NCBI GenBank assembly: GCA_002338715.1
Contig: DDIR01000093.1
Span: 1-35,947, forward strand
Direction of reading: 5' to 3'
DNA from: Phycisphaerales bacterium UBA1845
Lineage (GTDB): Bacteria > Planctomycetota > Phycisphaerae > UBA1845
Length of the DNA: 35,947 bases
Positions 17,446-35,189 of the stretch are shown piece after piece. The notes beneath the pieces were generated by a model that was not told where the DNA came from, made no database searches, and was given only the letters and a program-made list of their open reading frames with translations. How positions within the stretch are numbered: position 1 is the first letter of the stretch; every line of letters begins with the position of its first letter. Made by a program: the position numbers and the translations under genes.

Positions 17446-18153
17446 TTACGAGCGGCGGCGAAGGACGACTACTGCGCCGAGGCCCAGGAGCAGGGCTGAT
17501 GCCGGTTCCGGCGCCAGGACTGCGTTGAACACCGAGTTGATGTCGCAGGTGTAGTGGAACGGGAGCAGGATCGGATGTTCTGGGTCGAGCGTTGAGGGGT
17601 CGAGCATGATGCTGTCATCTTCCCACACCATCGACGCGGTGCCTTCGATGACATCGTCGCGAAGCGCGTTGACCGTCAGCGTTCCAAACGACGTGCTCGG
17701 CAGCAACACCGACTGACCCGGGAATCCGTACATGCTCAGGTCGTTGGTGAAGGTGATTTCGTAGGTGTCGGTGGTTTCAAAATCGAACGTGCCATCGCCA
17801 TTGTCGACGAGGCGGCCCGGTTCGGAACCGGGGATGATGCTGACGGTGATCGGTCCGGTTTCGACGTCCGCGCCGGTGCTGTTGGGCAGCGCGATGGAAC
17901 CAATCTGCTGCGAGTAGTTGGTGAACTTCGCGGTTTCGTTGTCGAAGTCGATTTCCATGCCGAAGGTGGTATTCGAGATTTCGGAATCGCGGACACCACC
18001 GTTGCCGAAGAAGTCGAGGGCAAACGTGCTGTCGGGTGCGCTTTGCGATTGATCCTGCACGGCGCTGAGGATGTACGGCGCGGCGGACGCGGTTGACGCG
18101 GCGAACATGCCGACACATGCGGCGACTGCAAAGATTGATCGTGTGCGTTTCAT
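17446..18153 (-). CDS. PEP-CTERM sorted exported protein
   Basis: The N-terminal signal peptide (MKRTRSIFAVAACVGMFAASTASAA) leads to a beta-rich, acidic 180-residue domain with no named family. The C-terminal sorting signal is PEPASALLLGLGAVVVLRRRS: PEP motif, membrane helix, Arg cluster. PEP-CTERM proteins are processed by exosortase and are usually linked to exopolysaccharide or biofilm. No exosortase lies in the window. The ribosome site GGAGAAACAGGAAAC directly precedes the ATG. A stem-loop terminator follows, so it is probably a single-gene unit. Confidence 0.9.
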   Translation of the reverse strand: MKRTRSIFAVAACVGMFAASTASAAPYILSAVQDQSQSAPDSTFALDFFGNGGVRDSEISNTTFGMEIDFDNETAKFTNYSQQIGSIALPNSTGADVETGPITVSIIPGSEPGRLVDNGDGTFDFETTDTYEITFTNDLSMYGFPGQSVLLPSTSFGTLTVNALRDDVIEGTASMVWEDDSIMLDPSTLDPEHPILLPFHYTCDINSVFNAVLAPEPASALLLGLGAVVVLRRRS

Positions 18154-18503
18154 GTTTCCTGTTTCTCCTTCAGTCCGGAAAAATTTCAGCCCGGAAAAGT
18201 TCTCTCCACCTCGCGGCGATTACGATCGTCCGCTGGACGTGGCTGTGACCGGCAACAAATGACCAAGAATTGGCGGGCTTGTCAACGTTTGCCGGTCTCC
18301 GATGGGATGAAGTATGCGCACAACGCACCCCTGATACAATCGCATTACATTTCTTGTGTACAACATTTGACAATTGGGGGGATTCCTTCGCCGAAAATGC
18401 GGGTCTGGATGGCGATGGCGTCATTGCGCGCGTTCGCATTTTGTGTGCGGATCACTACGATTGTGTGCATTCGGCCGTCACCACTGCGAGCGTTTCTATC
18501 GAC
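18154..18503. other. 350-base divergent gap, no supported gene
   Basis: It lies between the PEP-CTERM gene (minus) and the PaaK-like gene (plus). It contains the PEP-CTERM ribosome site, a 12-base direct repeat CAGYCCGGAAAA at 18171 and 18187 (period 16), and an isolated TTGACA at 18367-18372 without a good -10. An open frame from 18270 joins the PaaK-like gene, but its first 78 residues show no family features. Confidence 0.5.
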
Positions 18504-19805
18504 ATGCATGCCGACATCGCCAACGACATGAGACTTGCTCGGCGCGAACTTGTCGCCGTCCAGCGGCAAAAGTTGGCGGCATTGTTTGCGGCGATCCGAG
18601 GTGATGGCCACGCGTATGTCGGGTCGGCGTTTTATCGCAACAAATTCGACGGCATCGCATTCGATCCGTCGTGCGATGATCTTAACGCGCTTCCGCCCAC
18701 CACCCGTGCCGAGTTGCAGGCTAATCAGCAATCCCATCCGCCTTATGGAACCATACTGACTTGCGATGTCGATGCGTACGTGCGCTTTCACCAGACGTCG
18801 AGTACGTCGGGTGAACCGCTGCGTTGGCCCGACACGCGGGCGAATTGGGATTGGTGGATTCGATGCTGGCAGTTTGTGCTTGAAGGGGCGGGCGTCACGC
18901 AGAAGGATCGCGTGGTGTTTCCGTTTTCGTTTGGACCGTTCGTCGGGTTCTGGTCGGCGTTTGATGCGGCGTGTCAGCGCGGTTGTTTGTGCTTGCCGGC
19001 TGGCGGGATGTCGAGCGTCGCGCGTTTGAAGTACATCGCCGACAATTACGCGACGGTGGTATGTTGCACACCGACTTATGCGCTGCGGTTGGCGGAAGTT
19101 GCTGCCGCAGAGGGCGTTGATTTGTCAGGCCTTCCGGTGCGTGCGTTGATTGTGGCTGGCGAGCCGGGCGGGAGCATACCGGCTACCCGCGATCGGATTG
19201 AGTCGGCATGGGGCGCCCGGGTGTTCGATCATGTCGGCATGACGGAAATCGGCGCGTGGGGTTTTCAAACGGCGGACTACCGCGACGGTGTGTACGTCAT
19301 CGAGAGTGAATTCATCGCCGAGGTCATCGATCCGAAAACGCTTGAACCTGTCGATGAAGGTGAGCTTGGCGAGTTGGTGCTGACGAACCTTGGGCGGTTG
19401 GGCAGCCCGTTGATACGATACCGCACGGGTGATCTTGTTCGGCTGACCACCGAGCCCGGGCCCGATGGCGTTTGTTTTGCCCGTGTCATCGGAGGTGTGG
19501 TGGGCCGATCTGACGACATGTTGGTTGTTCGCGGCAACAATGTTTTTCCGTCGGCGATCGAAGATGTCCTGCGCCGATTCAGAGAGGTCGCCGAGTATCG
19601 CATCACCTTGCTGGATGACGGGCCACTCAATGATCTGCTGGTCGAAATTGAAATCGCGGAAGGCGAAAATTCGCCGAACGGTTTGTGTGAGCGCGTGTCT
19701 GATGCGCTGCGCCTTCGCCTGAACTTCGCACCAAAGGTCGCAACCGTGGCGGCCAACAGCTTGCCGCGCAGCGAAATGAAATCCCGTCGCGTTGCCCGTC
19801 CGTGA
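18504..19805 (+). CDS. PaaK-like adenylate-forming (acyl-CoA) ligase
   Basis: 433 residues of the phenylacetate-CoA ligase branch of the ANL superfamily, which activates a carboxylate with ATP and transfers it to CoA or another thiol. Visible are the ATP-loop RFHQTSSTSGEP (about 94-105), GMTEIGAWGF (A5-type), RYRTGD, the hinge GRSDDMLVVRGNNVFPSAIE (about 333-352) and a C-terminal SEMKSRRV with the Lys equivalent. The mobile C-terminal domain is therefore intact, unlike the ligase at 23825. The start is uncertain: ATG 18504 fits the family N-terminus (about 20 helical residues before the fold) but lacks a good ribosome site. The substrate is not readable. Confidence 0.88.
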   Translation: MHADIANDMRLARRELVAVQRQKLAALFAAIRGDGHAYVGSAFYRNKFDGIAFDPSCDDLNALPPTTRAELQANQQSHPPYGTILTCDVDAYVRFHQTSSTSGEPLRWPDTRANWDWWIRCWQFVLEGAGVTQKDRVVFPFSFGPFVGFWSAFDAACQRGCLCLPAGGMSSVARLKYIADNYATVVCCTPTYALRLAEVAAAEGVDLSGLPVRALIVAGEPGGSIPATRDRIESAWGARVFDHVGMTEIGAWGFQTADYRDGVYVIESEFIAEVIDPKTLEPVDEGELGELVLTNLGRLGSPLIRYRTGDLVRLTTEPGPDGVCFARVIGGVVGRSDDMLVVRGNNVFPSAIEDVLRRFREVAEYRITLLDDGPLNDLLVEIEIAEGENSPNGLCERVSDALRLRLNFAPKVATVAANSLPRSEMKSRRVARP

Positions 19806-19895: not shown

Positions 19896-19936
19896 CGTAT
19901 GTCACATTTACACGTATGTCACATTTGCACGTATGG
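19896..19936. repeat. 17-bp tandem repeat in the leader of the first PQQ-like gene
   Basis: CGTATGTCACATTTRCA occurs twice (19896 and 19913) and a third copy starts at 19930 (CGTATGG). It lies 35-75 bases upstream of the GTG start. A possible -10 (TAGAAT, 19872-19877) precedes it, so the repeats would be in the 5' leader. Binding sites for a regulator or slippage-prone DNA are both possible. Confidence 0.65.
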
Positions 19937-19970
19937 ATTCGACTGTCCGCCAAGTGAAGGAAACCAACAC

Positions 19971-22215
<2,245 letters not shown>

Positions 22216-22223
<8 letters not shown>

Positions 22224-23742
22224 TCGAATGGCGCATTCGTATCGCGCGATAGCGGCAGCCGCTTTGTTTGGATGTGTGGCGACGACAGTGAACGCAGAAC
22301 CGCTGGCCAAAGCCAAGAAGGGCGACTGGCGCATGTGGGGTGGATCGGCTGACCGCAACATGGTTTCAGGCGAGACGGGCATCGCGGCAGAGTGGGATCT
22401 CAAAGCCAAGAAGAACATCAAGTGGTCGGTCGAACTGGGATCGCAGACGTATGGCAACCCGGTGGTGATCAACGGCAAGGTGCTTGCGGGCACGAACAAC
22501 AACGGTCATCTGCGCCCGGGCATCGAAGGCGACAAGGGCGTGATCGTTTGCGTTGATGAAAAGACTGGCAAATTCCTCTGGCAGATGACGCACGACAAGT
22601 TGCCGACGGGGCGTGTGAACGATTGGCCCGAACAGGGTATTTGTTCGACGCCGTACGCCGAGGGCGATCGTATCTGGTACGTCAGCAACCGCTGCGAACT
22701 GGTGTGTGCCGACCTTGAAGGTTTTCTTGATGGTGAAAACGATGGGCCCTTCAAGGATGAGAAGTATCACGACGAGCACGACGGCGACATCGTCTGGAAG
22801 TACGACATGATCGAAGAGCTGGGTGTGTTTCCGCACAACCTCGCGACGTCGTCGCCGGTTGGGTATGGCGATTTGATCTTCATCAATACGTCGAACGGTG
22901 TGGACGAAGGACACCTGGATATGCCGGTGGCGAGTGCGCCGGCATTTATTGCGGTGAACAAGAAGACGGGTGAACTGGTCTGGGAAAACAACCAACCCGG
23001 CGACAAGGTGCTGCATGGCAGTTGGTCGTCGCCGGCAGTCGGGATGGTCGCAGGCAAGCCGCAAGTGGTTTTTGCGGGCGGTGACGGTTACGCGTATTCG
23101 TTCGAGCCGGAATCCGGAAAGTTGATCTGGAAGTTCAACCTCAACCCGAAGGATTCGAAGTGGGAGTTGGGCGGTCGCGGTACGAAGAACAACATCATCG
23201 CCACGCCGGTGATTCATGAGGATCGGGTGTACCTTTGCGTCGGGCAGGATCCGGAGCACGGTGAAGGGCCGGGTCATCTCTATTCGATCGACGCGACGAA
23301 GACGGGCGACATCACCGAGAGCGGACTCGTTTGGCACGTGGGCGGTGATCGGTTCAATCGTTCGATGTCGACGGTCGCGATTGCGGATGGCTTGCTTTAC
23401 ATCTCCGACCTCAGCGGGTTCTTGTATTGCCTCGATCTTAAGACTGGTAAGGAGCATTGGAAGTACGACACCTATGCAGCGATTTGGGGTTCGCCGTATG
23501 TCGTTGATGGCAAGGTGTATCTTGGTGATGAAGACGGCGAAGTGGTTGTGCTCAAGCATGGCCCGAAGCTGGAAGAGATCGCCACGAACGACATGTTGAA
23601 CTCGGTGTACACGTCGCCGGTGGCGGCCAACGGTACGCTGTTCGTGACGAATCGCCGGATGATGGTGGCGATTGAGTTGCCGAAAGACGGCGAAAAGAAG
23701 CCAGCCGCTGACGCAGAAAGCAAACCAAAGACCGAAGGGTAG
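22216..23742 (+). CDS. Secreted PQQ-like beta-propeller protein
   Basis: 508 residues with a signal peptide ([18 protein letters not shown]) and propeller blades throughout: [49 protein letters not shown] Lys/Glu-rich tail ([14 protein letters not shown]) ends it. It shares WRMWGG and 'ATKTGDITE' elements with the preceding propeller (WPYWRG, ASKTGDITE), so the two are probably diverged paralogues. Its ATG lies inside the end of the first gene (8-base overlap), so the two are translated together and may form one extracellular assembly. The enzymatic activity, if any, is unknown. Confidence 0.9.
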
Positions 23743-23749
23743 GTCCGTT

Positions 23750-23812
23750 GTAGGGTGGGCCGTGCCCACCACGGTTTGATGTCGATGAATTGGTGGGCAC
23801 GGCCCACCCTAC
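23750..23812. repeat. REP-like element, perfect 22-bp inverted repeat
   Basis: The arms 23750-23771 (GTAGGGTGGGCCGTGC...) and 23791-23812 are exact reverse complements around a 19-base loop. It sits between the propeller pair and the LuxE-like gene, 12 bases before that ATG. The GTGGGC/GCCCAC composition is that of widespread REP/MITE-like palindromes. RNA from the upstream genes would fold into a very stable hairpin, which could separate expression of the two halves. Confidence 0.85.
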
Positions 23813-23824
23813 GGGTAGAAGTTC

Positions 23825-24931
23825 ATGAATAGTGCAGCAGGTACATCGGCGGGGGCATCGATTGACGAACGGGCGACGGCAGCGAAAGCCGCGCTCGACA
23901 AGCACACGTGCGAGATTGTTGCGTGGCATTTTGATCCGGCGACGGGTACGCCGTTTTGGCTCGACTATGCGTCGAAGCTCGACTGGGACCCGCGCAAGGA
24001 AATCAAATGCTACAACGATCTCGACAAGTTTGATTTCTTCGAAGACGAGTGGCTGCGCCAGGGCAAGGTTCGCAGTTGGGTGCCCAAAGCCTACGCCAAC
24101 GATCCGATCTATACGTTCGAGACTGGTGGCAGCACCGGTGTGCCCAAGTCGCGCATCAACATCAAAGACTTTCGCATCGATTACGAACAGTTCAGCGACA
24201 CGCTGAGCGATGAGATGTTCCCACGCGGGGGTGATTGGTTGATGCTGGGCCCGTCAGGTCCGCGCCGGTTGCGGTTGGCGGTCGAGCATCTTTGCCAGCA
24301 TCGCGGTGGGATTTGCTTCTGTGTGGACATGGACCCGCGTTGGGTGGTGAAGCTCATCAAATCGTCGCGCCTGCGGGAAATGCACGAATACAAGGACCAT
24401 GTGGTTAACCAGGGGCTGACGCTTCTACGGGCGCACAAGAACATTCAGTGTTTGTTCACGACGCCGAAGTTGCTCGAAGCGTTGTGTGAACGGGTGTCGC
24501 TGGTTGATTACGGGATTAAGGGCGTGTTCTGCGGCGGGACGCAGTTGACCGCGCAGTTTCATCGGTTCGCCCGCGAGGAATTGCTCGAAGGCAAGATCGA
24601 TTTTGTGCCGACCTATGGCAACACGCTGATGGGTTTGGCGTGTCACAAGCCATTCGACCCAGCCGACAATTACAGCGTGATCTATCACCCGCCTTCACCG
24701 CGGGCGATGATTGAGGTCGTCGATCCGGAGAGCCCGCGCAAAGTCGTCGGGTACGGTGAACTGGGTCGGGCCCGCTTGACGACGTTGACCAAAGAATTTT
24801 TCATGCCGCGCTTCCTCGAACGCGACGAAGGCATCCGCACGAAACCGTGCGATGCGTATCCGTGGGATGGCATCGCTGATGTTCGGCCTTTCAGCGGTTT
24901 CGCCACACCGATCGTCGAGGGGGTTTATTGA
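23825..24931 (+). CDS. LuxE/PaaK-like adenylate-forming ligase lacking the C-terminal domain
   Basis: 368 residues. The ATP loop TFETGGSTGVPKS (about 97-109) and PTYGNTLMGLACH (A5 region, without the usual Glu) place it in the PaaK-LuxE branch. The protein ends just after DGIADVRPFSG, the position of the family's motif before the hinge, so the mobile C-terminal domain is missing. The length matches LuxE acyl-protein synthetase (about 370), which activates fatty acid and hands the acyl group to LuxC. The next gene is a LuxC-sized reductase joined by a TGATG overlap. Acid activation for reduction is therefore the best guess. A ribosome site is weak (GGGTAGAAG). Confidence 0.85.
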   Translation: MNSAAGTSAGASIDERATAAKAALDKHTCEIVAWHFDPATGTPFWLDYASKLDWDPRKEIKCYNDLDKFDFFEDEWLRQGKVRSWVPKAYANDPIYTFETGGSTGVPKSRINIKDFRIDYEQFSDTLSDEMFPRGGDWLMLGPSGPRRLRLAVEHLCQHRGGICFCVDMDPRWVVKLIKSSRLREMHEYKDHVVNQGLTLLRAHKNIQCLFTTPKLLEALCERVSLVDYGIKGVFCGGTQLTAQFHRFAREELLEGKIDFVPTYGNTLMGLACHKPFDPADNYSVIYHPPSPRAMIEVVDPESPRKVVGYGELGRARLTTLTKEFFMPRFLERDEGIRTKPCDAYPWDGIADVRPFSGFATPIVEGVY

Positions 24932-26352
24932 TGATCGAGATACCCATCCTTCGCTTCGGCAAGGTTTACGAAAGCATCGAAACGGTGACGCTCGTGCATC
25001 ACGCCACGGGTGAGCCCTTCGCCCGCGTGCATCAAGCCAACAGCGGTATGGTGCGGCGCGACATGGTGCGGATGGCCGACGATGCGCTGGAGAAGTTTTC
25101 GACGGCTGACCTGATCGCGATGGCCAGAAAAGCCGGCGAATTGTTCATGACGGCTCCGCTCCCTTTGGGAAAGTCGCAGCAATCGTTTGAGGATTACATC
25201 GCGCAGTTGTCGTGCACGACGGGCATGCCGATCACGTATTGTCGCGACAATGCCGGCAAGATCGCGAGCGTGTTGGAGAAAATGGATCAAGTGCTGGCCG
25301 GTTTGACGCGCGGGCTTGATCTGAAAGTGCTCGACGACGGTTACAGCGATGCGTCGGGGCACATGCTGAGTTTCTATCGCGCGGGGCGCGTCTTTGGGGC
25401 GGTGCTTCCGAGCAATTCGCCCGGTGTGCATTCGCTTTGGGCGCCGGCAATGGTGCTTAAGGCGCCGATCGTATTGAAGCCGGGGCGCGAGGAACCATGG
25501 ACGCCGTATCGCATGATCGAAGCGTTTGCCGCCGCTGGCTTTCCGCGCGAGGCGATGGGTTTCTATCCGACCGATCACGGTGGGGCGGGTGAACTTCTGC
25601 GGACGGCTGACCGGGCGATGCTGTTTGGCGGCGGGGCGACGGTGCGCCCGTATGAAAATGATCCGCGCATCGAACTGCACGGTCCCGGGTATTCAAAGGT
25701 GATTCTCGGTGACGATGTTGCGGACGACTGGGCGAAGTATGTTGAGGTGATGGCCACCTCGATCGATCGCAACGGCGGACGCTCCTGTATCAATGCATCG
25801 GCGATCTGGACGCCCAGGCATGGACGGGCGATCGCGGATGCGGTGGGCAAGGAGCTTGCGAAGCACAAGGCGCTGCCGGCAGATGATCCGAACGCGACGT
25901 TGGCAGCCTTCGCGAACCCAGCCGTCGCCGATCAGATCAACAACGTGATCGAGCACGCGCTGACGGAAGATGGCGCGGAAGATGTTTGCGCGGCGCATCG
26001 TGGTACGCCGCGATTGGCGCACATCGGACGCTGTGCATACCTTCAGCCGTCAGTGGTCTGGTGCGAATCGCGCGAGCACTCGTTGGCCAACCGCGAGTTC
26101 TTATTCCCGTATGCGTCGGTTGTCGAATGTCCAGCCGCTGAGATCGCGGATGCGATTGGCCCGACGTTGGTGGCGACGGTGATCACGCGCGACGAATCAT
26201 TTGTTCATTCCCTGATGAATCATCCCAATGTCGATCGGTTGAATGTGGGGGCGATCCCGACGTGGCGGATCAGTTGGGATCAGCCGCACGAGGGTAATCT
26301 GTTTGAATTGCTCTATCGTCAGCGGTCGTTTCAGTTCGAGCCAGCCGCTTAA
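24931..26352 (+). CDS. LuxC-like acyl reductase, aldehyde dehydrogenase fold
   Basis: 473 residues with an ALDH fold. AVLPSNSPGVHSLWAP (157-172) replaces the usual PWNFP, VLKPGREEPW (181-190) matches the cofactor-binding Lys segment, FGGG is at 232-235, and the nucleophile is probably Cys286 in NGGRSCINAS. This is the profile of acyl-reducing enzymes (LuxC and CoA-acylating aldehyde dehydrogenases) that form an acyl-Cys thioester. Its ATG overlaps the LuxE-like stop (TGATG), so the two products are made together. The likely reaction is acyl-AMP or acyl-thioester plus NAD(P)H to aldehyde. The direction in vivo is unproven. Confidence 0.87.
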   Translation: MIEIPILRFGKVYESIETVTLVHHATGEPFARVHQANSGMVRRDMVRMADDALEKFSTADLIAMARKAGELFMTAPLPLGKSQQSFEDYIAQLSCTTGMPITYCRDNAGKIASVLEKMDQVLAGLTRGLDLKVLDDGYSDASGHMLSFYRAGRVFGAVLPSNSPGVHSLWAPAMVLKAPIVLKPGREEPWTPYRMIEAFAAAGFPREAMGFYPTDHGGAGELLRTADRAMLFGGGATVRPYENDPRIELHGPGYSKVILGDDVADDWAKYVEVMATSIDRNGGRSCINASAIWTPRHGRAIADAVGKELAKHKALPADDPNATLAAFANPAVADQINNVIEHALTEDGAEDVCAAHRGTPRLAHIGRCAYLQPSVVWCESREHSLANREFLFPYASVVECPAAEIADAIGPTLVATVITRDESFVHSLMNHPNVDRLNVGAIPTWRISWDQPHEGNLFELLYRQRSFQFEPAA

Positions 26353-26379
26353 TCGGCACGCTTTTTCCGGGTCGCAATC

Positions 26380-27558
26380 ATGACCGAGTCGCAGATCAAT
26401 GGGGCGCCGTTGCCGAATGCGGAATTGCTGGCGCAGTCGCCCGTGCGCGTGGTGGCTGGCGCGGGTGCGCTGTCGCAGTTGGGCGCGTTGGCGCACGAAC
26501 TCGGCGCTTCGCGTGTGCTGCTGGTGACCGACCCGGGAATTGAGAAAGCGGGACACGCCATACGCGCGGCTGAGAGTCTCAAGAGTCGCGGCATCGAGAT
26601 CGTTTTGTTCGACGGTGTGCATGAGAATCCGACGACGGAGCATGTTGCGGCTGGTCTGAAGTTGGCGAACGGTCAGTCGATCGATGTGATCATCGGCGTG
26701 GGTGGCGGCAGTACGATGGACTGCGCGAAAGGAATTAACCTACTTTTAACAAATGGTGGAGAAATCCACGATTATCACGGTGAAGGCAAAGCCAACAAGC
26801 CAATGCTTCCCATGGTTGTCGCACCGACGACGGCTGGTACTGGTAGCGAGGCGCAGTCGTTCGCGTTGATCAGCGACCCGGTGACGCACGTGAAGATGGC
26901 TTGCGGTGATCGGCGCGTTCCGCGCGAGGGTGGTTTGCGGCCCCACGTGGCGATTCTGGATCATGAGCTGACGCGAAGTCAGCCGTCGAGCGTGGCGGCT
27001 GCTTCTGCGATCGATGCGATTTCGCACGCGGTGGAGACGGCTGCGACGAATGCGAGGACGAAACTGTCGCAGCAGTTTTCATGCGAGGCGTGGCGGCTTT
27101 TGGATCGCTCGATTGAAGCGGCGCTGTCCAACCCGCAAGACGACGATATGCGTCGTGATATGCTGTGGGGAGCGCATTTTGCAGGGGCTGCGATTGAGCA
27201 ATCGATGCTGGGCGCCGCCCATGCGTGCGCGAATCCGCTGACGGCGAAGTATGGCATCGTTCACGGGATGGCCGTCGGGATCATGCTGCCCCATGTAGTG
27301 CGTTTCAATTCGCAGGCGCAAGCGGATGTGTATGGTTCGCTCGGATTGGACGCGGACTCACTCGCAAATCGAATTACCCATTTCCTCAACGTCGCGCACA
27401 TGCCGGACGGGTTAGCCGCTCTTGGTGTGGAGCGGAGTGATCTTGAAGCGCTGGCGGAGTTGGCTGCAACGCAGTGGACGGCGAAATTCAATCCGGTTCC
27501 GGTCGGAGTCGAGGAATTCAAACACATCTATCAATCGGCGCTGAATTCCGCGCACTGA
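26380..27558 (+). CDS. Iron-type (group III) alcohol dehydrogenase
   Basis: 392 residues. NAD(P)-binding GGGSTMD (108-114) and TTAGTGSE (150-157) are typical. The metal ligands are D212, H216 (IDAISHAVE), H281 and H295 (HACANPLTAKYGIVHG), with the family's D-x3-H and H-x13-H spacing. It would interconvert aldehyde and alcohol. It begins 27 bases after the LuxC-like gene on the same strand, giving the order ligase, acyl reductase, alcohol dehydrogenase, in which a carboxylic acid could be taken to the alcohol or the reverse. Confidence 0.95.
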   Translation: MTESQINGAPLPNAELLAQSPVRVVAGAGALSQLGALAHELGASRVLLVTDPGIEKAGHAIRAAESLKSRGIEIVLFDGVHENPTTEHVAAGLKLANGQSIDVIIGVGGGSTMDCAKGINLLLTNGGEIHDYHGEGKANKPMLPMVVAPTTAGTGSEAQSFALISDPVTHVKMACGDRRVPREGGLRPHVAILDHELTRSQPSSVAAASAIDAISHAVETAATNARTKLSQQFSCEAWRLLDRSIEAALSNPQDDDMRRDMLWGAHFAGAAIEQSMLGAAHACANPLTAKYGIVHGMAVGIMLPHVVRFNSQAQADVYGSLGLDADSLANRITHFLNVAHMPDGLAALGVERSDLEALAELAATQWTAKFNPVPVGVEEFKHIYQSALNSAH

Positions 27559-27659: not shown

Positions 27660-27697
27660 TGTCATGCGGTTGGGGCGGTGTCGTGCGGTTGGGGCGA
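27660..27697. repeat. 19-bp tandem repeat upstream of the solute-binding protein
   Basis: TGTCATGCGGTTGGGGCGG (27660-27678) is followed directly by TGTCGTGCGGTTGGGGCGA (27679-27697). It lies about 85 bases before the solute-binding protein start, with a TTGGGCGACAATAGCCC motif shortly upstream. It could be a paired operator or a simple duplication. Confidence 0.6.
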
Positions 27698-27782
27698 CAA
27701 CACCGATCGACTTCCGCAGGGTCTTGGGAAATTCAGCGCAGGTTCGTGGTGTGACGTGATCTGCGCGGCAACTCTTATCGAT

Positions 27783-29183
27783 ATGGGCAAAATCATGCAC
27801 AAATTCGCGGCTGACATTGGGATCGTGCGCAGTTTTCTCGTGATGGCGATCGGTCTTGCGACGTTTGCGGGTTGCGAGCCGGCTGACGAATCAACGGGAG
27901 TCGGTGCTACGCCGAAAATTCCGTTGAAGCTGACGATCATCTCGCCGCACAGTGAGCGAATTCGAAATACGTTCGCGGATGCGTTTTCAAAATGGTACGA
28001 CCAGAACTACCAGAAGAGCGTTTCGATCGAATGGATTGTGCGGGGTACGCCTCAATGCGTGAAGTATATCGACAATCTTTTTGAAGGACATGATGCGCAA
28101 GGGGCGATGGCCGCTCCCGATTTGATGTTTGGCGGCGGCTTGGAGGATCATCGGGGGTTGGCTGCCCGCGATCGTTGCTTTGAGCTTGATCTTGGCGACT
28201 CGTTGGATGGCGTGCCGGCAGACATCCATGGCCTGCCTGTGCGCGACGAAAAGAATCGCTGGGTTGCGACGGGGTTGTCGACCTTTGGCATTCTGTACAA
28301 CGAAGCCGATTGCAAGGCCCGCGGGATCGAACCTCCGACAACCTGGACCGACCTTGCCGATCCGAGATTTGATGGATGGTTGGCGATCGCGAATCCGGCG
28401 CAGAGCGGAAGCAATCGTCAATGCATGATGTTGATCCTTCAGCAGCAGGGTTGGGAGGAAGGATGGAAGACGTTGGTGAAAATACTCGCCAACGCGCGGG
28501 TCTTGGAATCGAGCAGTACCCGCGTGCAGGATCAAGTTGCGTCGGGTGTGATGCTGGCGTGTTTCGCCGTGAATTTCGACGGGTTGCGGCGGGTCCAGGA
28601 GAATCCCGATTCGCTGCAATACATCAATCCACCGGGCGCGACCGCAGCGACGCCAGATATCACCTCGGTTCTGAAGACAGCGGCTGACTCGCGTTTGGCG
28701 CAGCAGTTCGTGAAATTCTGCCTGTCAGACGAAGGGCAGGCGATCTGGAGCATGAAAGCCAAGGGCGGTGATGGGGCGGCCCGCACGCTTTATCATTATC
28801 CGATCAAGCCCGGGTTGTATGAATCGCACAAGGATCAGCTGGCCGTCGCGGACAATCCGTTCGTGAACGACTTCGGTGTGCGGATCGATCAGGATGCGGC
28901 GGTGAAGCAGTCGACCGCGATCATTCCCATGACCGGTGCCATCTGCGGGGAAAACCACATTCGGCTTCAGCAGACGTGGGAGGCGATTCAGGACGAAGGC
29001 ATGAATGATGTGGCGCTGACGAAGCTGTGCGAACCGCTGATCGGTGAGCAGGAAGCCTACGAAGCGCTGAGCAAGGTGCAAGGGGTGGGCGACGATGAAG
29101 CGCTGGCGATTCATCAGAAATGGTCGGACGCATTCCGCGCGAAAATCGAAGAGGCTGTTCAGATCGCCAAGGGCGGCGAGTAG
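27783..29183 (+). CDS. Extracellular solute-binding lipoprotein (iron-type ABC family)
   Basis: A lipoprotein signal with lipobox LATFAGC puts the lipid-modified Cys at about 31. The mature domain, PLKLTIISPHSERIRNTFADAFSKWYDQNY, DLMFGGGLEDHRG, FGILYNEADCKARGIEPPTTWTDLADPRFDGWLAIANP and KFCLSDEGQAIW, matches periplasmic binding proteins of the AfuA/FbpA class, which bind Fe(III) or phosphorylated sugars. There is no permease or ATPase gene near it, so its transporter is elsewhere or it acts as a sensor subunit. ATG 27783 was preferred; 27795 is equally possible, as neither has a strong ribosome site. Confidence 0.85.
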   Translation: MGKIMHKFAADIGIVRSFLVMAIGLATFAGCEPADESTGVGATPKIPLKLTIISPHSERIRNTFADAFSKWYDQNYQKSVSIEWIVRGTPQCVKYIDNLFEGHDAQGAMAAPDLMFGGGLEDHRGLAARDRCFELDLGDSLDGVPADIHGLPVRDEKNRWVATGLSTFGILYNEADCKARGIEPPTTWTDLADPRFDGWLAIANPAQSGSNRQCMMLILQQQGWEEGWKTLVKILANARVLESSSTRVQDQVASGVMLACFAVNFDGLRRVQENPDSLQYINPPGATAATPDITSVLKTAADSRLAQQFVKFCLSDEGQAIWSMKAKGGDGAARTLYHYPIKPGLYESHKDQLAVADNPFVNDFGVRIDQDAAVKQSTAIIPMTGAICGENHIRLQQTWEAIQDEGMNDVALTKLCEPLIGEQEAYEALSKVQGVGDDEALAIHQKWSDAFRAKIEEAVQIAKGGE

Positions 29184-29286: not shown

Positions 29287-30129
29287 TTAGTCTGGAATCT
29301 GCAACACTTCTGAGGTGGGCAGTCGATCGCGTGAGGCGCGGGGCAGGCTGAAGTGCTTTTCCCACCAGATCGAATACGCCTGCATGCGGGCATTGAGTTC
29401 CTGGGTTTGTTCGACTGAGCTGTTGTACAGTTCGATGGGCCTTGCACCCAGAACCAGCGTGAGCTCCTTGCTGGTGAGGGTGTGATCAAATGGGTCTCGG
29501 CGAATGATCGTCAGTGCAAGTTTCCCACCCACACCCTTTTTCTTGATGTATTCTGCAAAGTCTTCGATCTCGCCAATCGGGTGTTGATCGATCGATGCAA
29601 TCACGTCGCCCTGGCGGAGCCCCGCTTTCTGCGCCGCGTGACCGGCCTCAACGCTGCCGATGAGAATGACAGGTTGGTTCGGGTCGAATGGGGTTCCGGT
29701 GTGCGGAGAGTATTGAACGCCCATGAAGCCGTTGTGCTTTAAGAGCGTATGCCAGAGGTATTGATTCTTGACGATTTGCTCAATCCGGAGGCGGACTTCG
29801 AAATCGCGATTGCTGTAGTAATGGCGGGAGAGCGCGGCGAAGGCGGCAGGTCCGATGTCTTCGAGCTGCTTGGAGGCGGCTTCTCTGGTTTCAAAGTCCG
29901 GTGAACCCAATTGTTCGATGAGCGGTTCAACCTGGTCATCGGGTGCATTGTCGAACCCGAGATTCAACTGATCGTATTGCTTTGGATCGGGGGCTGATCG
30001 CGCGGGTGCAGACTGGCCTTTCGACGTGACGGCTGGCATAAGCAGCAGCGCCGCGATCACGACCATTCGCGCGAGCGGCGCTCGTTGCGCCGCCCGAATC
30101 TGGATGGTTTGCGACCTTATTCGTCCCAT
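29287..30129 (-). CDS. Exported HEAT-PDZ protein
   Basis: 280 residues. A basic N-terminus and a hydrophobic segment (MVVIAALLLMPAVTS, about 22-36) indicate a signal peptide or anchor. HEAT-like repeats follow (LIEQLGSPDFETREAASKQLEDIGPAAFAAL, about 70-100), then a PDZ domain (about 135-230: FMGVQY, GHAAQKAGLRQGDVIASIDQHPIGEIEDF). It is the last gene of the PilM operon and overlaps the previous gene by 13 bases. A PDZ-bearing membrane protein is what GspC supplies in type II secretion, so it may be a functional stand-in. That is inference. Confidence 0.8.
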   Translation of the reverse strand: MGRIRSQTIQIRAAQRAPLARMVVIAALLLMPAVTSKGQSAPARSAPDPKQYDQLNLGFDNAPDDQVEPLIEQLGSPDFETREAASKQLEDIGPAAFAALSRHYYSNRDFEVRLRIEQIVKNQYLWHTLLKHNGFMGVQYSPHTGTPFDPNQPVILIGSVEAGHAAQKAGLRQGDVIASIDQHPIGEIEDFAEYIKKKGVGGKLALTIIRRDPFDHTLTSKELTLVLGARPIELYNSSVEQTQELNARMQAYSIWWEKHFSLPRASRDRLPTSEVLQIPD

Positions 30130-31844
30130 GCGATGGCCTTGTAGGCATCGTACAATTCGCTGTTTTCGTCAAACTCTTCGGTCTGCTCAAACAGATGTCC
30201 GGAAGCATCGACGTAGACAAGCGCCGTGGTTTTGATGGTCTGTCGGCGTCGCCCTTTCTTCCAGTATTGCTTGTCAAAAACAATATCGACCACGGTCGCG
30301 CCCGTGCTGAAGTCGACCTGGTCGTCCGGTCCGCGATGGGTCTTGATTCGTGTCACGATGTCGCCGATCGGTTCGCCAACGGTCAGCGTGAACTGCTTGG
30401 CGATCCACTGGCCAGCCACCCACTTGTACAGGTCAACCTTACACTCTTTCTTCTTCTCGTTGCCGGAGCGGACAAAGAAGATGGTGTCGCGATCGATGGT
30501 GATCGGTTCCGAGGGTTCGGACCAGTCGCCGACCAATTCAACTTTTGCGGCATCCTGGGGATTGTTGAGCAGTGGTGGCGTTCCGCAGTACTGGTTGTAG
30601 ATTCGCGGGCGAACCCGGTATTGATAAGTGCGGCCACTTTCGACGCTGCCTGGTGCGGCATCGTGAATCCAAAGGACCTGCTTTCCGATTGGAATGGCTG
30701 AGGTCTGTGCGGCTTGCAGCGCGATCTCCAGTTGCTTTTTGAACTTTTCGATTTTGCGTTGGTCGCGGGTGTCGGCTTTTTCTTCCGCTTTTTCGAGAAG
30801 TTTCTGGGCGCGGGCGAGATTGCCCTTGTCGAGTTGGGTTTCGAGTTCTTTGAGCAGATCCTTGATGTCCATGTCCTTGTCGACTTCGCCGGCTTTACAT
30901 TCGGGATAGCGGCAAGTCGAATCATCGGAAAGATACTCGGCATCCATCTCGGTGACGTCGTATTCAAATTGGCCACGCGGGTAGCGCCACTCGTCGCCGT
31001 ATTCGGTTTCGGGGAAGAGCGGCCGCATGATCGCAAGCTGGTTTTGCGGTACTGCAATCAGATCCTTGAAATGATTGATTCGATCGCGATCTTCCGGTGA
31101 GACGTTGAACCCTTTGCCATCTTCGACTTTGTAGACCTCGGGTTCAGGAAGCGGCGGCAGTTCCTGATTGATGACCGGTTTGATTGGTTCCCATTCTGAA
31201 TAGGAACCGTCGGCTTTGACGGTGCGGCGCTCGACGTCGGCTCCGGTGAACAGGGTCTTCACCCGGTCGGGGTTGTATCCGGCATCGACGGCGAGGGCTT
31301 GCTGTTTGTGGCGATCAAAGACGGCTGACACGGTCACCCAGTTCACGTCCTGCAAGGATTCGGCGTTGCGCGCCCGGGTGTTGGCGTCACCGAGTTTACC
31401 GGGCGGGTTGACATAAGTGCCGCTTCGTCCGGTCTGGGTGACGGGGCGGTCGAGCGTGACGACCTGGACGAGGTCGTGTCCTTCTGTCCTCGCAAGCACG
31501 CCGGGAATCTCGGGGACCACCGGGGGGAATTCGGCGATGCGCGGAATTTCTGCGTTCACGCCAGCCGCTGCCAATGGCTCCACCAGTTCATTGACCTTGT
31601 TCATTGGATCTTCGAAGGGCTCGGGTTCGACGTCGGCGCTCTTGAGGCGTTCGCGCAGGGAGTCGGCCATCTCGCGCGTGGCGTTGTCCACCTGGGCGGG
31701 GCCGAGCCATTCGCCATCCGACTCAACCTTGTTGGGAGAGACGACGCCGTATTGCGCAATCGCCAGCAACAGGACTGCGCCGGTGATACCGAGTATTGCT
31801 TTGTCAATGTGCCGGACGATGGGCCCGACGGATTGTTTGGCCAT
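30117..31844 (-). CDS. Large membrane-anchored protein of the PilM operon, family not recognised
   Basis: 575 residues with one N-terminal membrane helix (AILGITGAVLLLAIAQYGVV, about 16-35) and a long periplasmic part. There is a Pro/Glu-rich stretch (about 60-260), a Lys/Glu helical segment likely to be a coiled coil (about 325-385), and a beta-rich segment resembling a fibronectin-III strand set (TYQYRVRPRIYNQYCG, VGDWSEPSEPITI). The C-terminal region (about 480-575) is charged. It lies between the PilO-like and HEAT-PDZ genes, where type IV pilus operons hold PilP. No PilP similarity is visible. GGAG lies 10 bases before the ATG. Confidence 0.7.
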   Translation of the reverse strand: MAKQSVGPIVRHIDKAILGITGAVLLLAIAQYGVVSPNKVESDGEWLGPAQVDNATREMADSLRERLKSADVEPEPFEDPMNKVNELVEPLAAAGVNAEIPRIAEFPPVVPEIPGVLARTEGHDLVQVVTLDRPVTQTGRSGTYVNPPGKLGDANTRARNAESLQDVNWVTVSAVFDRHKQQALAVDAGYNPDRVKTLFTGADVERRTVKADGSYSEWEPIKPVINQELPPLPEPEVYKVEDGKGFNVSPEDRDRINHFKDLIAVPQNQLAIMRPLFPETEYGDEWRYPRGQFEYDVTEMDAEYLSDDSTCRYPECKAGEVDKDMDIKDLLKELETQLDKGNLARAQKLLEKAEEKADTRDQRKIEKFKKQLEIALQAAQTSAIPIGKQVLWIHDAAPGSVESGRTYQYRVRPRIYNQYCGTPPLLNNPQDAAKVELVGDWSEPSEPITIDRDTIFFVRSGNEKKKECKVDLYKWVAGQWIAKQFTLTVGEPIGDIVTRIKTHRGPDDQVDFSTGATVVDIVFDKQYWKKGRRRQTIKTTALVYVDASGHLFEQTEEFDENSELYDAYKAIAWDE

Positions 31845-31878
31845 TTTCTACATGCTCCGGGTTGCTTGATGCGATGCG

Positions 31879-33090
31879 TCAGGCGCCTTCGGTTTTGGGT
31901 TCTTCGGGGCGTTTCTTTTTCAGTAATTCCAGCGTTTCGTTGGGCATGATCGGCAGATAGAACTCGGAGAAGAACTCCGTTTCCATGTCCAGCGTGAGTT
32001 TCACCACCGGCTGATCTCCGTAAATCTTGCCCTGCATGGATGAATTCGGTTCAACGGATTCGTATTCGACATTGAGGATCGTCAGGAAGCGGTCGCGGGA
32101 GAGCTCTGACATGATTTTCGGCATTTTTGCCGCATCGACGATGAGTACCGTCGTCAATTGCATGACTTCGTAGAGCTCGTTCGACTTGTTTCCGGTAAAG
32201 ACGGCGTCCGCGCTGCCCGGGGGCATGGCGCGATCTTTGCTTTGCACGACCGTGTTCTTGCTTGTCGCGTCGGTCACGTAATATTGCGTGGTCTGGATTG
32301 AAACGAGTTCCTTGATCGGGAGATTGCCAACCCAGGCGCGAGAGCCTTCCTGTTCCAATTCGGCGGCTGCCGCGTTGTTGATCTCAGCCACCTTGTCGAT
32401 GATCAGGCGTTGCGTCCAGACTTCCAGTTGGGCGTGCCACATTTGTTCGGCTGACGGCGGTTTGCCGACATACATCGGGGCCATCGGATTTCGTTCGGAG
32501 ACATCGCTTTCCTGGAACGAGTTCTCCGTCGCGTAGCAGTAGATCGATTGTGCCTTGGTGATTGCGGCGCGGACTTCCGGGCGATTGATCATCGCGTTTT
32601 CGTCGGTCTTGACTTCGAGACCCAGTTCCTTCCGTTGGCTTTTGTCTTCATCAATGCGGTCGCGGGTCTGGGCGATGTCGTCCGCCGTCGGGATGTCGCC
32701 CGCTTTCATTTTGTCGAGCCAACTGTTGACCTCTTTTTGATATTCGAGCTTGAAGTCGCTTCGCTGAGCCGGCGTGGCGAGATGAAACGGAACATCGATC
32801 AGCGGTTTGTAGTAGTTGATGTCGCGAATCTTGCTCCGCAGATTCTTGTCGGCGGCCATGATCTTATCGACCCGGCTCTTGGCCTTTTCGACGGCATCCT
32901 TGTTGATGAGCTTACCGGCATTGGCCGCCGATTTGAGCTCCTGTCGTACGCTGAGTGCGGCTTGCATGTTCTCTTTGATGCTGGACATGTTGCTGGCGCC
33001 CAGATAGATCAGGACGATCCCGGCGATGGCCGCGACGCCACAGATAATCTCAAACAGAAAGCGTTTGATAATCTCAATGACAGCTTTCAC
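31879..33090 (-). CDS. PilO-like inner-membrane protein
   Basis: 403 residues. It has an N-terminal membrane helix (FEIICGVAAIAGIVLIYLGAS, about 13-33) followed by a long helical region (about 35-170) rich in Lys/Glu, then a compact alpha/beta C-terminal domain (about 230-380) with VTLDMETEFF and FYLPIMPNETLELLKKKRPEE. This layout (helix, coiled coil, ferredoxin-like domain) and its place right after the PilM gene match PilO/GspM, although it is about twice as long. The start is GTG at 33088-33090 with GGAGAAACCAA upstream. Homology is inferred from architecture and context only. Confidence 0.65.
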   Translation of the reverse strand: MKAVIEIIKRFLFEIICGVAAIAGIVLIYLGASNMSSIKENMQAALSVRQELKSAANAGKLINKDAVEKAKSRVDKIMAADKNLRSKIRDINYYKPLIDVPFHLATPAQRSDFKLEYQKEVNSWLDKMKAGDIPTADDIAQTRDRIDEDKSQRKELGLEVKTDENAMINRPEVRAAITKAQSIYCYATENSFQESDVSERNPMAPMYVGKPPSAEQMWHAQLEVWTQRLIIDKVAEINNAAAAELEQEGSRAWVGNLPIKELVSIQTTQYYVTDATSKNTVVQSKDRAMPPGSADAVFTGNKSNELYEVMQLTTVLIVDAAKMPKIMSELSRDRFLTILNVEYESVEPNSSMQGKIYGDQPVVKLTLDMETEFFSEFYLPIMPNETLELLKKKRPEEPKTEGA

Positions 33091-33185
33091 TTGGTTTCTC
33101 CAATGCCGGCTTCAGTTCCGTATGGTCTTGCAGCCAACTTCATCGGGCGATGTCGCCGCGCCCAATCGGCGAGGCGCGTTATTCG

Positions 33186-35189
33186 TTACTGGTTCTCTTT
33201 TTCTTCGGGCAGATCGGTCAACACGACTTCGATCACGATCTGAAAGTGATAGTCGTCGTCGGCAAGCTCGCCCGTGATTGGGTCCGTTGGCTTGGGGCCG
33301 CCCTGCGCTGGGGGTGGCGTGCCGCCTCCGCGTCCTCCTCTGCCTTCACGTCCTCGACCAGTGCTGCTGGCTTTTTCCTGCGCGACCGTCAGTCCGATGC
33401 GATTGATAAAAAATCCCTGTCCCGGCACGCGGCCTGTCTTGCGCAGCGTTCGGACGAACGAGTTGTTGACGAAAAGGCCTTTCTCCTGGGCATCGGGGCC
33501 GCTGCCCTTTTTGTGTGGGGCATACCCTTGCAGCGTGATGATGAATCCGGGGCGATTCTCGCCGCCCTTCTTCTCGTAAGTCTTGGTGGACTCTTCCGAG
33601 TAGTCGCCCTTGATGACGTCGACCGCATCCACATCTGCCGCGAATTTGGATTCAAATGATTCGATAAAGATTTCGTTGCGCTTGTCGCGACTCAAGCCGG
33701 CTGACTTGATCGCGTCGACGTACTCTTCGGCGTTGGTGGCCGATTTGAGTTCGTCCGCGGGGTCAGGCAGCGCCGCATGAATCGCCGACAGGATCTTGAT
33801 CCAGACGGTCCGGTTGGCCAACAGCTTCTCAATGTTCTCGGCTTTCTTGATCTCATTCGAGCCTTGCGAAGTGAGGCTGTTGTATTGCTGGTTGAGCGAC
33901 TTAGACGCGGCCGAGATCAGCTTGCCGTATGGGCGCGGCGGCAAGTCGGACGGCGGGTTCAGAATCGTGCTCCACGCGCTGTCGTCCGAGACGGGCGGCG
34001 GTGCACTCGAATTGGCTTCGAGCGTGTTGCGGTCAGCCATCCCGCGGAACCACACGACGCCTGCGGTCAGGAGCAAGCAAGCGGCAGCCGCTGCGAGGAA
34101 CGGGCGTTTCTTTTTCCATGCCGACGCCATGGCGATTTCGGGCGGAAGCAGGTTGCTGGTGACTTTGCCCAGGTCGAGACCTTGCAGTGCGAGTCCATAC
34201 GCGACGCTGTAGTTTGACGCATCACCGGCGCTGCCTTCGGCGCTGGGAATACGAATCTTGCTGAAGTTGTCGATCTTGATCAGATCGAGCTGCAGGTTCT
34301 GCTTGATGTACTTTTGCAAGCCGGGCAGTTTGAACGCGTTGCCCATGCCGTAGACCTTGCCGATGTCGACGTCGCGGTGGGTGGCGGTGTAGTAACCGAC
34401 CGAACGCTGAAGTTCCTGCACGAGGTCGGCGAACACCGGACGCATCGCCTGGAAAATCTGGCGGGCGTACTTGCTCGTTGCAGCCGTCCGCTTGAGCGTT
34501 TCCGCTTTGGAGAACGACAGCTTGAACGCTTTGACCAGTGCCTCGGTGAAGTTGTTGCCGCCGAGTTGGATCGAGCGGGTCCACAGCGATGATTCCGTTC
34601 CGATGATCAGGTCGGTGCTTTCGGTGCCGATGTCGATGATGATCGTGGCGCTCTCACCGACGAGCCCGTCAAAGTGCATGGCGTTGAACGATGCCAATGG
34701 TGCGGCTTGGACGGCGTTGGCTTCGATGCCCTGCGAGTCGAAGTGGACGAGATGGTCGCGGATGAGTTCGCGCTTGATCGCGAAGATGCCGACTTCGACA
34801 TCGGGATTGCCTTCAGCTTCAAAGACCTGGTAGTCCCAGACAACTTCATCCATATCGAAGGGGATCTGCTGATCGGCTTCGTAGCGGACGATGTCGGGGA
34901 TTTTCTTTTTGTTTTCGACGGGCGGGAGTTTGCTGAAGCGCGCGAGGGTTTGCGCTCCGGGCACGCCGATGACGATCCGGTCGTTGGTGATGTCGTTCTT
35001 CGCGAGGAATTTTTCCAGCGCAGACGACCACAGGGCGTCGGGATCGGCGTCTTGCTGCGACATGATCTTGGAATGTTCGATGTAGTCGGTGCTGACGACT
35101 TCCACGCCGTCACCCGCCGCCCGGAGGCGAACGGCTTTGAATGCTGATTTACCGACGTCGATTCCCCAAACCGTCTGCGGGCCTGCCAT
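33186..35189 (-). CDS. PilM-PilN-like fusion protein
   Basis: The first ~350 residues are an actin-like PilM/GspL cytoplasmic ATP-binding domain: WGIDVGKSAFKAVRL (8-22), VPGAQTLARFSKLPP, FDMDEVVWDYQ, IIIDIGTESTDLIIG (about 186-200). A membrane helix at about 362-382 (FLAAAAACLLLTAGVVWF) follows, then a periplasmic part (about 400-667) with a PilN-like helix, AAPHKKGSG-type loops and a Gly/Arg-rich linker RGREGRGGRGGG (about 610-625). In most bacteria PilM and PilN are separate genes; here they are joined, as in GspL. RBS AGGAG lies 9 bases before the ATG. It heads the minus-strand operon. Confidence 0.85.
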   Translation of the reverse strand: MAGPQTVWGIDVGKSAFKAVRLRAAGDGVEVVSTDYIEHSKIMSQQDADPDALWSSALEKFLAKNDITNDRIVIGVPGAQTLARFSKLPPVENKKKIPDIVRYEADQQIPFDMDEVVWDYQVFEAEGNPDVEVGIFAIKRELIRDHLVHFDSQGIEANAVQAAPLASFNAMHFDGLVGESATIIIDIGTESTDLIIGTESSLWTRSIQLGGNNFTEALVKAFKLSFSKAETLKRTAATSKYARQIFQAMRPVFADLVQELQRSVGYYTATHRDVDIGKVYGMGNAFKLPGLQKYIKQNLQLDLIKIDNFSKIRIPSAEGSAGDASNYSVAYGLALQGLDLGKVTSNLLPPEIAMASAWKKKRPFLAAAAACLLLTAGVVWFRGMADRNTLEANSSAPPPVSDDSAWSTILNPPSDLPPRPYGKLISAASKSLNQQYNSLTSQGSNEIKKAENIEKLLANRTVWIKILSAIHAALPDPADELKSATNAEEYVDAIKSAGLSRDKRNEIFIESFESKFAADVDAVDVIKGDYSEESTKTYEKKGGENRPGFIITLQGYAPHKKGSGPDAQEKGLFVNNSFVRTLRKTGRVPGQGFFINRIGLTVAQEKASSTGRGREGRGGRGGGTPPPAQGGPKPTDPITGELADDDYHFQIVIEVVLTDLPEEKENQ

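Follow-up and report, generated by a model that had tools for sequence, protein, structure and literature searches.

A conserved gene set in Phycisphaerales bacterium UBA1845 and other, mostly uncultivated bacteria that may reduce an aromatic acid

The 35,947-nucleotide contig DDIR01000093.1 of Phycisphaerales bacterium UBA1845 (analysed over its full length and called the window here) carries three tandem genes encoding an AMP-binding ligase (LIG), an aldehyde dehydrogenase-family protein (ALDH) and an iron-type alcohol dehydrogenase (FeADH), which a preliminary description of this DNA had likened to LuxE, LuxC and a group III alcohol dehydrogenase and had read as a carboxylic acid reduction route without luciferase. 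Open reading frames (ORFs) and Pfam searches (E <= 1e-3) bear out the structural part of that description: the genes follow in this order, the ALDH start overlaps the LIG stop (TGATG), FeADH begins 27 bases beyond the ALDH stop at 26352, and the ALDH ORF, which spans 24928-26352 on the plus strand, yields 473 residues from the ATG at 24931, the cysteine of GGRSCINA being residue 286 when numbered from that ATG. LIG matches PF00501 (AMP-binding) alone, at 31.2 bits, and lacks the C-terminal ANL domain; the ALDH product matches Aldedh PF00171 at 71.5 bits and FeADH matches PF00465 at 163.7 bits. Since no protein of the trio matches the LuxE family PF04443 or the LuxC family PF05893 at this threshold, the terms 'LuxE-like' and 'LuxC-like' are valid for length only, and LuxE/LuxC identity was dropped. 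The Lux proteins do share an architecture with LIG and ALDH, namely an adenylating protein without a C-terminal domain and a reductase of the aldehyde dehydrogenase fold, but they differ from them in Pfam family. As had been stated, luxA, luxB and luxD are absent from the 20 window ORFs scanned, the rest of the genome not having been searched for lux genes. Coordinates of these and the other features discussed are collected in Table 1.

Table 1. Features of the window and of the second locus in the same genome
Feature	Position	Strand	Size or basis
Secreted PEP-CTERM-like protein, possible accessory	17446..18153	-	235 aa; PF07589 20.4 bits (cut-off 20.7)
PaaK-like adenylate-forming ligase	18270..19805	+	PF00501 + PF14535
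PQQ1, beta-propeller protein with C-terminal extension	19899..22223	+	774 aa; PQQ_2 propeller
PQQ2, eight-bladed BamB-like propeller, long conserved loops	22216..23742	+	508 aa; Pfam + model fold
Inverted repeat, perfect, 22-nt arms, 19-nt loop, between PQQ2 and LIG	23750..23812	.	sequence
LIG, EhpF-type adenylating enzyme without C-terminal domain	23825..24931	+	368 aa
ALDH, candidate acyl-adenylate reductase	24931..26352	+	473 aa; PF00171
FeADH, group III iron-type alcohol dehydrogenase	26380..27558	+	392 aa; PF00465
Solute-binding protein, membership doubtful	27678..29183	+	SBP_bac_6/PhnS2-like, under PhnS2 cut-off
c14 halogenase-type flavoprotein	own genome contig G000:C129, 33290-34510	-	
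c13 chorismate-lyase-like	own genome contig G000:C129, 34592-35164	-	
c10 HemN-like radical SAM	own genome contig G000:C129, 35175-36461	-	

Where, then, do the closest relatives of these enzymes lie? By sequence, the sole significant solved relatives of LIG are the EhpF entries 3l2k and 3hgu (E 4.5e-41, residues 30-368 of 368), and a profile made from 11 LIG orthologues lifts the EhpF match to E 8e-48. An ALDH-family gene adjoins the EhpF-type ligase in an Escherichia coli plasmid phenazine cluster (where it is presumably the one named EhpG), in a Streptomyces plasmid and in a Halalkalicoccus plasmid; the window ALDH is 25, 26 and 28% identical to these three partners over most of its length (single comparisons, E 1e-37 to 1e-33). 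A fourth record, Streptomyces Mut1, has a polyketide synthase after the ligase and no ALDH in that position. Ligase matches were present in 28 plasmid records, and among the 20 listed several are annotated as arylcarboxylate reductase or phenazine proteins. Of the families with which the trio was to be compared, that of the arylcarboxylate reductases supplied relatives (EhpF and the annotated plasmid proteins), whereas LuxE and LuxC did not. The motifs TGG[ST]TGxPK and YGNT are present in all 80 LIG orthologue ORFs, and GRSC is conserved in all 50 ALDH orthologue ORFs. In a phylogenetic tree, 37 LIG orthologue rows, drawn from the related loci and the window, group together with a support of 100/99; their clade sits on a branch 1.86 changes per site long and excludes the plasmid and EhpF relatives, whose branches are long and whose order is unsure.

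By homology, LIG and ALDH are predicted to constitute a two-component aryl-carboxylate reductase, a kind of system known from two precedents, EhpF-O and GriC/GriD. EhpF-O turn phenazine-1,6-dicarboxylic acid into D-alanylgriseoluteic acid, and griseoluteic acid bears a hydroxymethyl group (PMC3175449), which suggests that an aromatic carboxyl ends as hydroxymethyl in this pathway. The likeness extends to the ligase, which agrees in length and fold, and to the homologous ALDH gene directly after it; however, identity is just 33-38% for the ligase (best plasmid matches) and 25% for ALDH, and the window set, unlike the EhpF system, has FeADH, PaaK, propellers and chorismate-lyase-like, flavoprotein and radical S-adenosylmethionine (SAM) genes. 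GriC and GriD, compared by description, are likewise separate AMP-binding and reductase proteins, which adenylate and reduce a benzoic acid derivative, 3-amino-4-hydroxybenzoate, to the aldehyde (PMC10179220). The Streptomyces plasmid genes annotated as arylcarboxylate reductase are ~33-35% identical to LIG and fall outside the LIG clade. Phenazine synthesis itself was rejected for the window, where no phz gene was seen among the 20 ORFs scanned.

A distant EhpF-like paralogue lies at G000:C114 (L063:472-9220), inside another recurrent cluster with a radical SAM protein bearing DUF3641, a short-chain dehydrogenase/reductase of the thioester-reductase type, a hydrolase, a 515-residue protein of unknown kind and an HpnB-like glycosyltransferase; this cluster recurs in other genomes (L054-L062).

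The third gene was rightly called an iron-type alcohol dehydrogenase of what we take to be 'group III': besides its Pfam match, it has the metal-binding motifs DxxxHAxE (33/33 orthologue ORFs) and HA..HG (32/33), and its closest solved structure is an NAD-dependent methanol dehydrogenase (E 6.8e-60).

The trio belongs to one linked, conserved gene set that includes PaaK and the two propellers, as the preliminary description had supposed. Several relatives have the order PaaK-PQQ1-PQQ2-LIG-ALDH-FeADH, and the idea of a stand-alone trio gave way to that of a block of six genes with a second locus besides. Related loci were counted in the 80 best of 286 relatives, from a collection holding one genome per species. 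The second locus comprises c10, a HemN-like radical SAM protein, c13, of 200 residues, c14, a halogenase-type flavoprotein, a sodium:solute symporter and a 4HBT thioesterase. It sits downstream of FeADH in some relatives and elsewhere in the genome in others, and in some it is followed by genes for a small membrane protein and a further propeller.

Co-occurrence was scored in 60 genomes, the organism's own included, for seven genes (PaaK, LIG, ALDH, FeADH, c10, c13 and c14), with FeADH counted at E <= 1e-90 and PaaK at E <= 1e-80, and with radical SAM matches of 41-44% and flavoprotein matches of 33-35% excluded; the LIG tally of 37 at 1e-3 was trimmed to 34 by removing G005, G031 and G033, which hold only paralogues of 29-33%. 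The carriers number 34 for PaaK, 34 for LIG, 34 for ALDH, 31 for FeADH, 36 for c10, 35 for c13 and 35 for c14, with 39 for PQQ2. Leaving PQQ2 aside, all seven genes occur in 26 genomes, none in 24 and some in 10 (G002, G005, G007, G008, G016, G018, G020, G025, G031 and G042), and all 34 PaaK carriers are among the 36 genomes with any of the seven. If only the five genes LIG, ALDH, c10, c13 and c14 are considered, 31 genomes have all of them, 24 have none and 5 are partial, the corresponding numbers being 27, 14 and 2 in the 43 genomes that are >=90% complete and <=5% contaminated. Genomes without the set are scattered among carriers (10/36 in family f1, 2/6 in f4), and PQQ2 is also present in 5 genomes without the remaining set. 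Besides the own genome, 33/59 relatives have a LIG orthologue at 64-97% identity, so that the observation is not one of chance. The preliminary description had staked the linked pathway on the three genes being kept together in related genomes, and this they are by co-occurrence, though only some of the genomes keep the three strictly adjacent. A distant LIG paralogue occurs in 10/60 genomes, of which only G033 lacks the set; hence, not all ligases of the family follow the pattern.

The two propellers are conserved as well. PQQ1 keeps its position upstream of PQQ2 and LIG in relatives, and PQQ2 is 55-78% identical to 11 orthologues from several phyla. The modelled fold of PQQ2 resembles BamB, YxaL and tetrathionate hydrolase, and such a modelled, BamB-like fold gives no function. 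Neither protein exceeds the cut-offs for pyrroloquinoline quinone (PQQ)-dependent dehydrogenases (35-43 bits versus 480 for TIGR03075, and far short for TIGR03074 too), and a search for PqqC matched none of the 60 genomes, but no control genome either. In alignment A6, 12 of the 17 rows initially chosen were kept, L142 being out of frame and L037, L038, L047 and L145 being omitted by choice.

In the second locus, c10 retains CxxxCxxC in 47/47 orthologue ORFs and scores under every NCBIfam curated cut-off listed. By fold comparison c13 has the chorismate lyase/DUF98 fold, and Met34, Arg76, Leu114 and Glu155 (numbered without the initiator Met), which we take to be the active-site residues of UbiC, are kept in 14/14 rows of alignment A3, to which E. 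coli UbiC was added. The nearest solved proteins to c14 are halogenases (8zop, 3e1t, Bmp2-type, PltA), and its orthologue ORFs carry what are presumably the halogenase motifs, GxGxxG in 41/41, WxWxIP in 40/41 and the lysine motif in 39/41. The protein stays under all NCBIfam cut-offs, the models matched being those for CmlS, QhpG and geranylgeranyl reductase, and non-halogenating flavoproteins match it too (QhpG, the geranylgeranyl reductase family, 3nix), so that either halogenation or hydroxylation is possible.

Close orthologues are also found in Acidobacteria, Poribacteria, KSB1, Calditrichia and Verrucomicrobia bins, and LIG identity among the 80 best loci, which span several phyla, is 61-96%. 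A homologue search in which the 8000 best candidates were scored gave protein names that carried no information. Of the 39 non-planctomycete loci among the 80, 23 had their genomes checked for the radical SAM gene, and 16 of these genomes have a c10 orthologue (50-57% identity); near these 16 genes, within the stretches examined, c14 is present in 12 and PaaK in 8. A glycosyltransferase (24/80 loci), an ATP-binding cassette (ABC) ATPase (19/80) and an FtsX-type permease (17/80) recur as neighbours. In Acidobacteria (L103, L105, L108, L119, L138) the same ligase stands in another arrangement: after LIG, which in most of these loci has ALDH with it, comes a glycosyltransferase, an ABC ATPase or an FtsX-type permease of 1,100 residues, and several of the genomes lack a radical SAM orthologue. 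In Poribacteria (L184, L144) a sulfatase lies within or beside the cluster, and some loci have a TAXI-type solute-binding protein; the Poribacterial gene m22, once suspected to be a lyase substitute, proved to encode such a protein.

What might such a set of genes make? We consider it somewhat probable that the three enzymes form the carboxyl-reducing arm of a hitherto undescribed pathway that makes an aromatic compound from a hydroxybenzoate, a judgement that applies to biosynthetic aryl-acid reduction as a whole and is less firm for an alcohol as the end product. Of the two chemistries originally offered, long-chain and aromatic, the first found no support and the second is favoured by relatives in aryl-acid-reducing pathways. 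The scheme that we infer, in its catalytic steps, their order and its product alike, from the computed gene content, linkage, co-occurrence, folds and active-site residues would start with c13, which would turn chorismate into a hydroxybenzoate (4-hydroxybenzoate being the likeliest), after which c14 and c10 may alter the ring or side chain. LIG would then adenylate the carboxylate with ATP, the ALDH cysteine would accept the acyl group for NAD(P)H-dependent reduction to the aldehyde, both by homology, and FeADH, judged by homology and linkage, would convert the aldehyde to an aryl alcohol. PaaK may activate a second acid or a later intermediate. More speculatively, the secreted propellers and the Na+/solute symporter could handle the product outside the cell, as could the glycosyltransferase and ABC exporter found in part of the genomes. 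A partnership of a chorismate lyase with a halogenase-type flavoprotein is known from bromophenol synthesis, where, compared by description, Bmp6 is the lyase and Bmp5 the flavin brominase (PMC5577590); Bmp5, however, releases the carboxyl as CO2 when it brominates, whereas here the carboxyl would stay and be reduced. No description of the present cluster was found in a library of open-access papers, subscription papers being mostly outside the search, and to that extent the module is undescribed, as had been proposed. A planctomycete cluster of chorismate lyase/halogenase type for a dibrominated anisic acid has reportedly been published, but did not turn up in this search.

Several observations weigh against this biosynthetic reading. 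In the organism's own genome the genes for c10, c13 and c14 are on contig C129 and not on that of the window. Sensor UTRA domains and UbiC match the c13 fold about equally well, 14 c13 members have no Pfam match up to E 10, the Rv2949c/DUF98 models included (UbiC scoring 0.7 bits), and a c13 profile search of the PDB returned no lyase, only Nup50 at 0.016. Outside Planctomycetota, 7/23 genomes, all titled Acidobacteria or its classes, have no c10 orthologue, and c13 is near just 3/16 c10 genes within the stretches examined, so that the chorismate-lyase-like step is not demonstrated as general beyond that phylum. Among loci with sufficient flank, split into planctomycete-titled and other, ALDH lies <=3 kb downstream of LIG in 19/31 and 25/31, respectively, and FeADH <=6 kb from LIG in 16/26 and 6/29; with PQQ2 <=2.5 kb upstream of LIG in 22/32 and 15/36 and PaaK <=7 kb upstream in 18/26 and 0/29, adjacency is real yet partial. 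The Fisher p-values for co-occurrence are too strong because the genomes are related. Finally, uptake-type genes nearby (symporter, solute-binding proteins, TonB receptor) would equally suit catabolism.

Of the alternatives, the one that survives best, though we think it unlikely, keeps LIG and ALDH as proposed and makes the aldehyde the product, or an intermediate used further, with FeADH auxiliary or detoxifying. Among the seven genes FeADH is indeed kept least tightly, being missing at threshold from 5/10 partial genomes, and it adjoins LIG in fewer loci than ALDH does; Acidobacteria such as L103 and L108 have the order LIG-ALDH-glycosyltransferase without it, and grixazone synthesis ends at an aldehyde. 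Yet none of the 24 pathway-less genomes has an FeADH orthologue at threshold, FeADH adjoins ALDH in Phycisphaerae, Verrucomicrobia, KSB1 and some Acidobacteria, and the G007 gene is interrupted by contig ends. Catabolism or salvage, in which an aromatic acid or alcohol would be imported and interconverted for growth and c13 would bind or modify a ligand rather than act as a lyase, appears still more doubtful. In its favour, relatives have a symporter, TAXI-type and other solute-binding proteins, a TonB receptor and a 4HBT thioesterase near the cluster, and the Halalkalicoccus order is symporter-ligase-ALDH; against this, ATP-driven carboxyl reduction is a costly step of biosynthetic type, c13 retains the UbiC active-site residues, and no ring-cleavage gene was seen among the recurrent neighbours scanned, a scan that was not a full survey.

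Very improbable, in our estimate, is an aryl-alcohol redox cycle, in which a chorismate-derived, perhaps halogenated, hydroxybenzyl alcohol would be exported, oxidised outside near the secreted propellers, re-imported as the acid via the Na+ symporter and re-reduced by LIG, ALDH and FeADH. Recycling of aryl alcohols has been proposed for white-rot fungi, and such a cycle would resemble their aryl-alcohol chemistry; if true, it would mean a small-molecule mediator widely shared in uncultivated phyla. We give hardly any credence to Lux-type reduction of a fatty acid to a long-chain alcohol, which the protein lengths, the gene order and the missing ANL domain recall, but which the unmatched Lux families, the lack of any lux gene among the scanned window ORFs and the aryl-acid pathways of the closest solved and annotated LIG relatives contradict. 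Just as little is given to a chance neighbourhood without a common pathway: several loci have LIG without the other genes within the stretch examined, but the seven genes co-occur even across separate contigs, their losses are scattered within f1 and f4, and the distant LIG paralogue of the same genomes departs from this pattern.

Some features of the window lie at the margins of the set. The true start of PaaK is probably ~80-95 codons inside its ORF, by alignment with relatives. The PEP-CTERM-like protein shares 37-43% identity with proteins that 5 relatives at order level encode next to the radical SAM/flavoprotein locus. The solute-binding protein gene recurs downstream in the same-genus loci L031-L034 and, in a set of 84 loci, in 3. 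The inverted repeat is present as a single copy in the window, allowing <=2 mismatches. A minus-strand block at 29287-35189, with a gene order kept within the genus, encodes a PDZ protein, a PilM-like protein and two proteins that match no Pfam family, and a T2SSE ATPase gene lies at 11341-13023.

To return to the biosynthetic reading, a small aromatic acid is probably reduced to an aldehyde or alcohol by a bacterial pathway shared among these lineages. Its strong conservation across phyla, in bins of mostly uncultivated groups, points to a steady role, given how similar LIG remains among the best loci. Under this reading two families of conserved secreted propellers, at present named by fold only, would also gain a function. 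The product would be directly testable, since simple aromatic acids suffice to assay LIG with ALDH, the putative lyase and the flavoprotein.

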